From Ruaniaceae bacterium KH17 (lineage in GTDB: Bacteria > Actinomycetota > Actinomycetes > Actinomycetales > Actinomycetaceae): a stretch of DNA of 64,000 bases. Shown one piece after another: positions 1-23,140 of the stretch (its first letter is position 1; the number at the start of each line of letters is the position of its first letter). Location of the stretch: the NCBI GenBank assembly GCA_900199505.1, contig FZQV01000003.1, positions 62,001-126,000 of the forward strand. The letters are read 5' to 3'. The notes below the pieces were generated by a model that saw only the letters and a program-made list of their open reading frames with translations, ran no database searches and had not been told where the DNA came from. The position numbers and the translations under genes are program-made.

Positions 1-150
1 GACTCAAACTCCCGCCTCAGCGCCCGTTCAACCGCGCCGCACCCGCCACGCACCGTTGCGGCTCGGGATGGTGGCGCAGTCTAGGTCGGCTGGGCCACTG
101 CGCACGGCCGGGGATGGACGCATTGGCTCTGACTTTCGTCACCTTGCGCG
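1..150. other. left-edge intergenic stretch, no gene recognised
   Basis: No supported gene, tRNA or repeat is visible here. Short open frames cross the region, but they run through the palindrome at 151-199 and resemble no known protein. The 3' end of an unseen gene to the left could reach into it. Confidence 0.5.
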
Positions 151-199
151 TGATCTTGGCAGTCAGTGAACGCATAGCGTTCAGCCACTGCCAAGATCA
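151..199. repeat. 49-bp imperfect palindrome, copy 1
   Basis: Two 13-bp outer arms (151-163 and 187-199) are perfect reverse complements. Next come a 3x3 mismatch, then 7-bp inner arms (167-173 TGAACGC and 177-183 GCGTTCA) around a 3-nt loop. Near-identical copies lie at 1293-1341 and 3072-3120, all in the same orientation. The right end (TCA at 197-199) supplies the TGA stop of the minus-strand gene ending at 197. It could be a REP-like element, a small non-autonomous mobile unit or a bidirectional terminator. Confidence 0.9.
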
Positions 200-1174
200 G
201 GCGGCGGTTGGCTTCAACTGAAGCTGGGTGAGGTATCGCGGCATTGTGCAGTTGGGTCCGCAGGTGCGAGGGGTACCAGTCCACCCGCGCTTCGCTAGTG
301 CGGTCACGACTTGCGCGGCAACCCTGCACGGATCGAGAGTGACGTGCGGCCAGCGGAACCTCAGCGTGATCTCGTCGAGAACGATCCGAACCTCGTTATC
401 ACGCATCACGTCGTCATCGGTGGCCCTCCCAGGGTGGGCGAGTTCGCCGTCGAGCTCGATTCGGACCTTGTGCGACTTGTGCCAACGATCGGATCGGATC
501 CAGCGCCCGGCGATGCGTTCGCGCTTCTGGCCCTCAGAATGCGGTAGCCCGTGTGCGCGTTCGACCTGCCGCAGATAGGCGAGTTCGAGATGGGACTCCA
601 CTCCGAGCTCAGTGATCTCAAGCATTCCTGTGAGATAGCGCCGGTGTTTGAGGCGCTTGCGCTTGTTCATCTTCCCGATGAACTTGTCGATATCCATGCG
701 GATCTGGATCGCCTTGATGAGGAGTTCCAGGACGTGGGCCCGAGTTGCGACTGTGTCGATGAGGTCCAGAACGGTGTCAGTGAGCGGTGGTCGACGTGGG
801 TCGCCAAAGCCACTGAGAGGTCGGGTCGTTCTCCGCACGGAAACATACTCGTTGGACCTCAGTCCCGAAGCCGCTGGGACGATGACATCGAGCCGATCTG
901 GCGGCTTCGTCCGCAGACCATGGAGATACGCGGCGGTCTCACCGGCGAAGATGATGTTGTGATCGCCAGACCACTTCCGGACGAGTGTGACTCTCTGACC
1001 GAAGCTCGGGTTGCCCGGCCACACGAGGTACACGCCTGGAAGTGGGCGACTCCACTCGCCATCTGCGATCTTGTGGGCAATCGTGCTACTTCGCACACCC
1101 AGAGCGGAGAGTTCCGTGCGGGAGAGCACGCCGTTGTGTCGTCGCGATGCTGATGCAAGCCTTGTCTTGTCCAT
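197..1174 (-). CDS. AbiEi-type winged-helix protein with DUF559/Vsr-like endonuclease domain
   Basis: A 325-aa protein. The first ~90 residues resemble the AbiEi winged-helix domain of type IV toxin-antitoxin systems (GVLSRTELSALGV, then AYLHGL). The C-terminal half looks like the DUF559/Vsr endonuclease fold common in actinobacteria: a GVESHLE glutamate, IELDGE, DDDVMRDNE, DPCRVAAQVV and an RGWTGTP...CGPNC tail. The family is often annotated as an AbiEi antitoxin although no AbiEii toxin is adjacent, as here. The ATG at 1174 is chosen because the upstream extension has no family likeness and runs through a palindrome. Two DnaA-box matches lie in its upstream region. The stop codon lies inside palindrome copy 1. 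The function is not established; an orphan nuclease or regulator is plausible. Confidence 0.7.
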   Translation of the reverse strand: MDKTRLASASRRHNGVLSRTELSALGVRSSTIAHKIADGEWSRPLPGVYLVWPGNPSFGQRVTLVRKWSGDHNIIFAGETAAYLHGLRTKPPDRLDVIVPAASGLRSNEYVSVRRTTRPLSGFGDPRRPPLTDTVLDLIDTVATRAHVLELLIKAIQIRMDIDKFIGKMNKRKRLKHRRYLTGMLEITELGVESHLELAYLRQVERAHGLPHSEGQKRERIAGRWIRSDRWHKSHKVRIELDGELAHPGRATDDDVMRDNEVRIVLDEITLRFRWPHVTLDPCRVAAQVVTALAKRGWTGTPRTCGPNCTMPRYLTQLQLKPTAA

Positions 1175-1216
1175 CCCACGAGTCTGGTCGCAGTGTGCTG
1201 TGCGCGGTAGGTGGCC

Positions 1217-1257
1217 TGTGGATAGAGACACACTTGCCGTTCGGGGTCTGTGGATAA
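1217..1257 (-). promoter_or_regulatory. two DnaA-box-like sites upstream of the AbiEi-type gene
   Basis: On the minus strand the sequence reads TTATCCACA (1257-1249), a perfect match to the strong DnaA box, and CTATCCACA (1225-1217), one base off. The sites are 32 bp apart, about three helical turns, in the same orientation, and lie 43-83 bp upstream of the start codon at 1174. They may link expression of the gene to DnaA or replication state; binding is inferred only from the motif. Confidence 0.5.
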
Positions 1258-1292
1258 CCTGGCGAAGGTGGCCCCCTCGGCGCCCCGACCCG

Positions 1293-1341
1293 AGATCTTG
1301 GCACTCAGTGAACGCATGGCGTTCACCCACTGCCACGATCA
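1293..1341. repeat. 49-bp imperfect palindrome, copy 2
   Basis: Same length and orientation as copies 1 and 3, with a few substitutions (for example GCATGGCG in place of GCATAGCG, and a CACGATCA right end). It sits between the 3' end of the zinc-finger gene at 1415 and the upstream region of the AbiEi-type gene, so it could terminate the former. Confidence 0.88.
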
Positions 1342-1414
1342 TGTTGCGGCGAGATCGTCACTGCTACCGTCCTGGCCCTGATCTCAATCCGAAGTGTGGG
1401 CAAGGGTGGCGAGA

Positions 1415-1789
1415 CTATTCTGGCTTTGTGAAGCGCTCCCACGCGGACTGGCGTGTCATCCCGAGCGCTTCGCCGATGCGTGCCCAGCTAATCCCGCGTT
1501 CGCGTGCCGCCACCACCCACGTGCGCAGGTGCGTCTCCACCAGGGTGCCCGCGGCCGCAACGTGGGGGAGTTGGGCGAGGAGAGCATCGTCATCGAGACG
1601 CTGCCACGGAGTCACGGGGCCATCGACGTCGTCGTCGCGGTTCGCACTCGCGAAGAGCGTTACGGCACTCTCGGCGCAGTCTCTGCAGATCGCGGCGAGT
1701 GGGCTCGAAACCAGACGGCCCGTCTCCGCACGGGAGCGAAGGCAGTAGCTGCACATCACATCGGTGGTCACGTCACCAGTATTGCGCAT
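1415..1789 (-). CDS. ClpX C4-type zinc-finger protein with C-terminal helix-turn-helix
   Basis: A 124-aa protein. Residues ~13-40 carry CSYC...CRDC, matching the four-cysteine zinc-binding module of ClpX but without any AAA+ ATPase. The C-terminus (RERGISWARIGEALGMTRQSA) looks like a helix-turn-helix of the kind seen in small actinobacterial regulators. The start at 1789 has no obvious Shine-Dalgarno and may be leaderless; an in-frame ATG at 1756, just before CSYC, is an alternative. It is divergent from the MFS gene across a short interval containing an inverted-repeat operator, so it may regulate that exporter (inference). It resembles unnamed actinobacterial ClpX-C4 zinc-finger proteins. 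Confidence 0.65.
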   Translation of the reverse strand: MRNTGDVTTDVMCSYCLRSRAETGRLVSSPLAAICRDCAESAVTLFASANRDDDVDGPVTPWQRLDDDALLAQLPHVAAAGTLVETHLRTWVVAARERGISWARIGEALGMTRQSAWERFTKPE

Positions 1790-1830
1790 GGCAGGTGTAG
1801 CCTGACAATATGTCAGGGCGGACCTGACAG
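1782..1830 (+). promoter_or_regulatory. MFS promoter with CCTGAC inverted-repeat operator
   Basis: A perfect inverted repeat CCTGAC-N5-GTCAGG lies at 1801-1817, and a third half-site CCTGACA at 1823-1829. A plausible -35 (TTGCGC, 1782-1787) and -10 (CAATAT, 1806-1811), 18 bp apart, place the operator over the -10. The element lies between the divergent zinc-finger and MFS genes, as expected for a local repressor site. Confidence 0.55.
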
Positions 1831-1844
1831 TGAGGAGTCGCTCT

Positions 1845-3074
1845 ATGCCATCTGCGCAGGCACCGGCCGTCCGATGGTTCACGAATACTTCCATCCTGGA
1901 AAGCATCGGAGATTCGGTGGCAAGAAACCTGCTTCCAATCGTGGCCGTGACGATCCTGGGAGCCGGGATTGGGACAGTTGGGTTGCTGAACTCGCTCGGC
2001 CTGGTGGCGTTTCTGGTGCTTGGCCTGCCGATCGGAGTCCTTGCCGACCGATGGCCATTGCCGACGTGGATCATGACAGTCAGCACCACGGTTCGGGCAG
2101 CGGTGGTGCTGGGAGCGGTGGGCGCGTGGGCTTCCGGGCTGTTCGACGGCGTCGTCGGGCTCGGGATCTTGATCGCGGTTGCGCTGATCGTTGGAGTCGC
2201 AGACGTTGCCTACACAAGTGGGCAAGGACTACTTGTGCCGCGCATTGTCGAGCCGGACGAGATCCGCCCACTCTTTGGTCGAGCCCAGGCCGCCGGGCAA
2301 GTGGGAGGGGTAGTGGGTTCACTCCTCCTCTCCGGTGGTTTGGCTGTGGTTGCGGCCCCGTTGCTCTGGTGCGTGTCGGGTGCGTCGTATCTTGGCTCGG
2401 TGGTGACGCAGCGGCGGATTCGTCCGATCCAACCGGCTGTTGCGCGAGTGCCTCGCGAATCGATGTGGCGGCAGGCTCGCAATGGGTTGGGACTACTGGT
2501 GCGCGAGCCAACGCTGCGCAGAATCACGATTGCGAATACCTTGCACAACGCGGCCGTGATGGCCGCAAACACGCTCGTCCCGGTGGTCGCTCTCTCGAGC
2601 TTGAGCATCGCGCCGAGCGTGTACGCCTTGCTGGGTATTGCCTCGGCACTCGCCGGCATTGGTGGTGCCGCGAGCGCGGCGACGATCACGGCGCGGCTGG
2701 GTCTACGGATGACGCGAGCATTGTGTGGGCTCGGCATCATCACAGGCGTGCTTGCCGTCATGAGCGTCGACTTCTTGCCCGGACCGGCCGAACTCTGGAT
2801 CGGTATTCAGATCGCGCTGGCTGCCGTGTGTGGGCCGATCGCACTTGTGGCGGGCGCCGATCTTCCGGCCAAGCTGTCTCCGCCCGAGCGACTCGGCGCC
2901 GTGATGGGTGCACAACGGACTGTGGTGCTGGGCATCATGCCGATCGCCGCCGTTGCAATTGGTGCGCTGGGATCGGCGGCCGGAGTCGACTCTGCGCTGC
3001 GGACGTGGCTTGCACTCGCAGTAGCTGCAGTGATTCCATGCCTGTTTCTCGGCCGCGAGCCAGCTACGGAATGA
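1845..3074 (+). CDS. MFS family efflux transporter
   Basis: A 409-aa protein with about 12 predicted hydrophobic segments and the MFS loop motif between TM2 and TM3 (GLPIGVLADRWPLP). It resembles the EntS/MFS_3-type exporters that move small molecules out of the cell by proton antiport; the substrate is unknown. The ATG at 1845 is preferred over the in-frame GTG at 1830 because AGGAG at 1833-1837 sits 7 nt upstream. It is divergent from the zinc-finger gene, with an operator overlapping its promoter. Its TGA stop (3072-3074) is the first base triplet of palindrome copy 3. Confidence 0.82.
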   Translation: MPSAQAPAVRWFTNTSILESIGDSVARNLLPIVAVTILGAGIGTVGLLNSLGLVAFLVLGLPIGVLADRWPLPTWIMTVSTTVRAAVVLGAVGAWASGLFDGVVGLGILIAVALIVGVADVAYTSGQGLLVPRIVEPDEIRPLFGRAQAAGQVGGVVGSLLLSGGLAVVAAPLLWCVSGASYLGSVVTQRRIRPIQPAVARVPRESMWRQARNGLGLLVREPTLRRITIANTLHNAAVMAANTLVPVVALSSLSIAPSVYALLGIASALAGIGGAASAATITARLGLRMTRALCGLGIITGVLAVMSVDFLPGPAELWIGIQIALAAVCGPIALVAGADLPAKLSPPERLGAVMGAQRTVVLGIMPIAAVAIGALGSAAGVDSALRTWLALAVAAVIPCLFLGREPATE

Positions 3075-3120
3075 TCTTGGCACTCGGTGACCGCATAGCG
3101 TTCAGCCACTGCCAAGATCA
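3072..3120. repeat. 49-bp imperfect palindrome, copy 3
   Basis: The outer ten bases match copy 1 on both sides (TGATCTTGGC and GCCAAGATCA). It differs from copy 1 mainly at CACTCGGTGACC. It supplies the stop codon of the MFS gene and, as a long hairpin, could serve as its terminator. Confidence 0.9.
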
Positions 3121-3404: not shown

Positions 3405-3803
3405 TCAGCGCGGCTGGCGGATTGCGCAGGTGAGGCGCGAGGTGGCGGCCAGGCGGCCAGCGTCGTCGCGGATCTCGATCTGGTAGCTCGCGATCGAGCG
3501 GCCCTCAATGATCGGGGTGGCGGTTGCAGTCACGAACCCCTCGGTCACGGAGCGGTGATGCGTAATGTTCAGTTCGATCCCCACGGCCTGTGCCGGTGCC
3601 GCGTGCATGTTCGCGGCGAACGATCCCACGGTCTCGGCGAGCGCCGCAGAGGCGCCGCCGTGCAGCAGCCCGGCGGGCTGAGTATTGTGCGCCACGGGCA
3701 TCCGGGCGACAACGCGGCCGTCCGCCACGTCGAGGAATTCCATCTCCATTCGCTCAAGAAGGGTTCCGGCTGCCATCGCTTGCGCTTCACTCGTGTGGGT
3801 CAT
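3405..3803 (-). CDS. PaaI-family hotdog-fold thioesterase
   Basis: A 132-aa hotdog-fold protein of the PaaI/YbgC type, expected to hydrolyse acyl-CoA thioesters. The signature is AHNTQPAGLLHGGASAALAE, in which the HGG loop and following helix form the active site; IELNITHHRSV and IASYQIEIRDDAGRLAATSR are also typical. The start at 3803 gives the usual family length; the longer frame adds 45 unlike residues running over polA. It is divergent from polA with only 19 bp between start codons, so the promoters must overlap the opposite genes. The natural substrate is not predictable. Confidence 0.85.
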   Translation of the reverse strand: MTHTSEAQAMAAGTLLERMEMEFLDVADGRVVARMPVAHNTQPAGLLHGGASAALAETVGSFAANMHAAPAQAVGIELNITHHRSVTEGFVTATATPIIEGRSIASYQIEIRDDAGRLAATSRLTCAIRQPR

Positions 3804-22355: not shown

Positions 22356-23140
22356 TGAACGCACGCACCCCGCTGATGGCGGGTAACTGGAAGATGAACC
22401 TCGATCACCACGAGGCGATCGCGCTTGTGCAGAAGCTTGCCTGGGTCCTCAAGGACGCCAAGCACGACTATGACGATGTCGCGGTGGCGGTGATCCCGCC
22501 GTACACCAATCTGCGTTCCGTGCAGACTCTGGTGGATGGCGACAAGCTCGAGATCGCATACGGCGCGCAGGACGTCTCCGTACACGAATCGGGCGCCTAC
22601 ACCGGTGAGATCTCCGGTGCCATGCTCAAGAAGCTCGGTTGCAGCTACGTGGTCGTGGGGCACTCGGAGCGCCGGGAGTACCACGGCGAGTCGGACGAAC
22701 TGATTGGCCAGAAAGCCGCTGTTGCGCTTGCCAAGGAGATGACTCCGATCATCTGCGTGGGCGAGGGCCTGGACATCCGCAAGGCGGGGGAGCACGTGGC
22801 ATACACCCTCGCGCAGGTGGAGGGTTGCTATGCCGGCCTTTCGGCTGAGGATGCCGTCAAGACCGTCATCGCCTACGAGCCCGTCTGGGCGATCGGCACC
22901 GGCGAGGTGGCGACCCCAGAGGACGCGCAGGAGGTCTGTGGTGCGATCCGTGGCAAGCTGAATGAGCTGTATGGCGCGGAGGTTGCCGACGCCGTGCGCG
23001 TGCTCTACGGTGGTTCGGTCAAGTCCTCGAACGTGGCCGCCATCATGGCGAAAGATGACATCGACGGCGCGCTCGTGGGCGGTGCCTCGCTCCAGGCCGA
23101 AGAGTTCGCGGCGATCGCGCGTTACAAGGTCGTCTCGTAA
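22355..23140 (+). CDS. tpiA: triose-phosphate isomerase
   Basis: A 261-aa TIM-barrel glycolytic enzyme interconverting dihydroxyacetone phosphate and glyceraldehyde 3-phosphate. Substrate-binding Asn-Lys in GNWKMNL, catalytic His in [14 protein letters not shown], catalytic Glu and flexible loop in [17 protein letters not shown], and the phosphate-binding YGGSVK and GALVGGASL. The start overlaps the pgk stop (TGATG), so the two are translationally coupled. A hairpin follows the stop. Confidence 0.97.

Follow-up and report, generated by a model that had tools for sequence, protein, structure and literature searches.

A dispersed family of REP-like palindromes at gene ends in the genome of Ruaniaceae bacterium KH17

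The three 49-bp palindromes found in a 64-kb stretch of the KH17 genome (the window, meaning the whole stretch of DNA that was analysed) belong to a genome-wide repeat family and are not specific to the block of three genes among which they lie; other copies do not confirm any delimiting role. Members of the family are dispersed, fixed in length and sharply bounded, they sit at the 3′ ends of genes and between convergent genes, and junctions that carry them in KH17 are free of them in relatives. We think it likely that they are a lineage-specific REP-like family of 49-53-bp hairpins which are spread in trans by an enzyme, survive after stop codons and possibly act as hairpins at mRNA 3′ ends, and that three of them accumulated in a horizontally gained block.

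The palindromes of the window

The window lies in contig C66 of an actinobacterial genome of 2.72 Mb (72 contigs, ~65% GC). Its three palindromes (Table 1) share their length and their orientation under a covariance model. In copy 1 the 13-bp arms are followed by a 3x3 mismatch, and 7-bp inner arms enclose a 3-nt loop, with a predicted stability of -19.9 kcal/mol as DNA (z ~ -8.8); copies 2 and 3 are imperfect forms of the same design (z ~ -5.4 to -7.0). Arm searches allowing ≤2 mismatches returned the three copies plus one or two chance matches and no fourth palindrome in the 64 kb, where 0.00 chance occurrences of the paired arm pattern are expected. The preliminary description had given these positions, this shared length and orientation and this fold of copy 1, and had seen no further copy in the window; the arm searches and folding bear out all of it. 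No Rfam family matched at the palindromes.

Table 1 Features of the palindrome-bearing block (positions in the window).
Feature	Position	Strand	Remarks
Palindrome copy 1	151-199	+	Conserved unit ~148-201; right end is the TGA stop of the AbiEi-type gene
AbiEi-type protein gene	197..1174	-	Weak AbiEi_4 N-terminal domain, E 4e-4, below gathering score; outside the repeat
Palindrome copy 2	1293-1341	+	73 bp downstream of the zinc-finger gene stop; upstream of the AbiEi-type gene
ClpX-type C4 zinc-finger protein gene	1415..1792	-	Neighbour of the repeat, not part of it
MFS transporter gene	1830..3074	+	MFS_1; TIGR00900-like, below cut-off; divergent from the zinc-finger gene
Palindrome copy 3	3072-3120	+	Left end is the TGA stop of the MFS gene

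The stop codons that two of the copies had been said to provide were confirmed: the TGA of the AbiEi-type gene is the complement of 197-199, within copy 1, and 3072-3074 in copy 3 is the TGA of the MFS gene. The unit begins and ends with TGA/TCA, and the stops would be a by-product of that. The AbiEi-type reading frame as listed (381 aa, from 1342) begins within copy 2, and its likely start is near 1174. Where the preliminary description had the palindromes delimit exactly the three genes, copy 2 is internal to the block, so that one copy stands 3′ of the stop of each gene, and about 30 copies lie elsewhere.

A genome-wide family

Further copies on other contigs were first seen by pattern search, and a covariance model built from 10 copies identified ~33 distinct palindromes in the KH17 genome, on many contigs. 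All but one align over the full 49 positions of the model, free of indels, the single exception being a decayed copy on C58 with a partial match, and the aligned copies are ~85% alike. The consensus, GC-R-TGATCTTGGCACTCAGTGAACGCWNAGCGTTCACCNACTGCCAAGATCA-TG, describes a discrete unit of 49-53 bp bounded by GC-R to the left and TG to the right; information content falls to background within 2-3 bp of the palindrome's edges. One pair of copies on different contigs (C33:33228 and C56:12888) is identical over 49 bp, with flanks that share 3 bp on the left (GCG) and 6 bp on the right (TGGCGG) and then differ. Flanks of copies are otherwise unrelated, and no target duplication was detected, flanking direct repeats being no better than in shuffled pairings (91/500). 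Of the checks proposed in the preliminary description, the copy count supports a REP-like family (dispersed, extragenic and at 3′ ends), and the search for target duplications came out negative.

Sequence conservation among the KH17 copies exceeds the needs of a stem, yet their pairing shows no covariation in excess of shuffles. RNA hairpins are predicted to be very stable on both strands. Comparison of the palindrome with plasmids, phages and viral contigs gave no match, and among the literature matches listed for the arm sequence GATCTTGGCA only other subjects appeared.

Two further kinds of sequence were observed near or resembling the family. Two C55 hairpins, at 22979 and 23504 (L071:2980-3028 and 3505-3553), keep the outer arms ATCTTGGCAC and have a different inner arm; they are near-identical, with a small peptidyl-hydrolase-like (GGQ) gene between them. 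Intergenic sequence of the type AGCGAGCG-AGCGAG-GAAAC adjoins some palindromes (L064:3401-3640, L066:2990-3030) and is apparently another short repeat.

Placement at gene ends

Genes were called by a codon-usage score and 240 kb sampled from the same genome served as control. Convergent gene pairs hold 17/33 copies vs 8.1% of the available 49-bp placements (p ~9e-11), and divergent pairs 3/33 vs 44% (p ~2e-5). Thirty of the 33 lie downstream of at least one gene, nearly all within ~100 bp of a stop; none lies inside a called gene, and one overlaps the end of an open reading frame. Housekeeping neighbours include truA/rplQ, aroQ/uppS (the latter two genes identified by sequence), UDP-glucose pyrophosphorylase and phosphoglucomutase. 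Most copies outside the block stand singly. Since copies are mostly single and occur next to such housekeeping genes, the palindromes do not define the three-gene block, and the earlier suggestion of a cassette is not supported, no target duplication having been detected either.

A search of 120 other genomes of the host’s taxonomic family found no convincing copy of the palindrome (one weak match, E 0.058); no second genome of the KH17 genus came up in the searches. Gene order at four palindrome sites was set against that in other genera. The aroQ/uppS and dynamin/DEAD-helicase pairs are convergent in relatives also, with gene order kept and without the palindrome. The truA/rplQ and lplA/cimA pairs are not convergent in relatives; in KH17 a two-gene segment including truA, and lplA alone, are apparently inverted, with a palindrome at one breakpoint (L178:7604-9277, L179:6916-9867). 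At the opposite ends of these two inversions, no second palindrome was found at meaningful scores. This association of palindrome and inversion, seen at two of four junctions compared without control for the background inversion rate, is a lead only.

Strong 3′-end and convergent bias, together with very stable predicted RNA hairpins on both strands, would also be expected of bidirectional transcription terminators of stereotyped sequence that selection retains at gene ends and that are not mobile DNA. We regard this explanation as unlikely. No T run follows the hairpins and a terminator scan flags none of them, more of the sequence is conserved than a stem requires, whereas the pairing lacks covariation, there are only ~33 sites in a 2.7-Mb genome, and the same junctions occur in relatives without the palindrome.

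The three-gene block

Where both flank genes were found nearby in relatives, an ANTAR regulator lies close to a thioesterase-polA pair with no block gene between them; in the closest relative the two matches are ~21 bp apart. The empty sites for which the preliminary description had proposed to look are present in these relatives. It had also named a genome without further copies, together with a block kept at the same place in all relatives, as counting against its reading; instead, ~33 copies exist and these relatives lack the block at this place. GC3 of the block genes is 0.70-0.76 vs 0.82-0.89 in their neighbours. Because of this low GC3 and the absence of the genes from between the flank genes in relatives, the AbiEi/zinc-finger/MFS block was probably acquired horizontally in the KH17 lineage. 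The zinc-finger protein, judged from its C-terminal sequence, is probably a regulator. Searches of the block genes against plasmids and phages returned one weak Streptomyces MFS match and, in a single unannotated phage record, a distantly similar (27%) AbiEi-type protein, and the block encodes neither recombinase nor integrase.

A 131-bp unit is repeated ~2.5 times in tandem (copies ~80% alike) in the gap that separates the ANTAR regulator from palindrome copy 1 (L005:4779-5113); window positions 1-113 are the last part of this array. Elsewhere, in 495 kb of KH17 sequence, this unit has weak partial matches only.

Block absence in the relatives examined, low GC3 and the presence of three copies within 3 kb would suit palindromes that are the ends of a mobile cassette or composite element which brought the three genes into the ANTAR-thioesterase gap. 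We disfavour this reading and consider it very improbable, as ~30 other copies lie elsewhere, many beside housekeeping genes, target duplications are missing, copy 2 is internal and no recombinase accompanies the genes. If the palindromes were bound, as nested double-stranded inverted repeats, by a protein that organises the nucleoid or regulates genes, conserved sequence without covariation and the fixed 49-bp length would be accounted for; this reading is just as improbable, promoters being avoided and the sharp unit edges and identical pair resembling copied DNA.

The reading that we prefer is that of a REP-like family whose copies would be spread by a trans-acting enzyme working on the hairpin (the genome has no Y1/RAYT transposase) and would persist where promoters are undisturbed, i.e. 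after stop codons. Transcribed copies would fold into a stable hairpin on either strand and could serve as marks or as protection at mRNA 3′ ends, and hairpins could limit read-through between convergent genes. Three copies would have built up after the three genes of the probably acquired block. What appeared to be a block boundary is thus part of a genome-wide repeat family, and caution is needed before such palindromes are taken as cassette ends.

Constant-end hairpins in Micromonosporaceae

When 84,980 genomes were scanned for the 10-bp outer arms, 12 stretches of 44-48 nt were found, seven of them in Micromonosporaceae. The genomes concerned carry 7-28 such hairpins each, mostly of 45 or 46 nt between the limits ATCTTGG and CCAAGAT, and the inner arms differ greatly. 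Carriers of many 45-46-nt constant-end hairpins are Micromonospora and Actinoplanes genomes (L128-L147, L155-L167). The inner arms of one Micromonospora genome covary (33 double-changed cells vs 19 in shuffles, 0/500 reaching 33), the outer 7 bp of this set being invariant by construction of the search. Convergent placement there is not significant (6/21, p 0.23), with gene calls that are poor at 73% GC. Among 396 genomes of the phylum, constant-end hairpins occur in number only in KH17 (12) and in one genome of family f23 (14), taken as Micromonosporaceae from the likeness of its hairpins; the remaining matches are single and look like chance.

Micromonosporaceae hairpins resemble those of KH17 in their 8-bp outer arms, GATCTTGG...CCAAGATC, and in overall length (47-48 vs 47 nt), but differ in their inner arms and in their clear covariation. 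Shared ends and length may reflect common descent or a common enzyme, or may be due to chance. It is a rather doubtful proposal that the KH17 family is one local form of a class of actinobacterial mobile hairpins in which the ends (GATCTTGG...CCAAGATC) and the length stay constant and the inner arms change freely; such hairpins would be moved by an enzyme that reads only the ends and would promote small local inversions as at truA/rplQ and lplA/cimA. If such a class were common to KH17 and Micromonosporaceae, it would represent an unrecognised route by which hairpin DNA spreads without a RAYT transposase.

Comparison with known systems

By placement and organisation we file the palindromes as a REP-like extragenic family, outside the GTAG and CGTC super-families and the RAYT-mobilised REPs, because Y1 transposase, tag, T run and attC core are all lacking. 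Searches of the KH17 genome for Y1_Tnp (PF01797) gave no match, with positive controls detected. The preliminary description had named a REP/MITE-like family; dispersal and placement fit REPs, and the target-site duplication expected of a MITE was not found.

Like the KH17 palindromes, integron attC sites follow genes, are imperfectly palindromic and have conserved asymmetric mismatches. Most KH17 copies, however, are single rather than part of a gene-by-gene array, the block has no integrase, and the aligned 33 copies lack the attC core GTTRRRY/RYYYAAC.

REPs described in the literature are found chiefly downstream of genes and between convergent or co-directional open reading frames, and their termini often supply stop codons (PMC3733652). 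The KH17 unit is longer, at 49-53 bp vs 20-40 bp, with a longer stem and conserved internal mismatches, and unlike the GTAG and CGTC super-families it has no unpaired GTAG or CGTC tag at the foot of the hairpin; its conserved flanks read GC-R (left) and TG (right). Generic features of REPs, namely many dispersed and nearly all extragenic copies and a downstream or convergent location, are present. The KH17 palindromes are similar to REPs or palindromic units (PMC3733652) in being short, extragenic and dispersed in tens of copies, with a downstream and convergent bias and termini that supply stops, and they resemble the CGTC families (PMC3733652) in likewise having no dedicated transposase.
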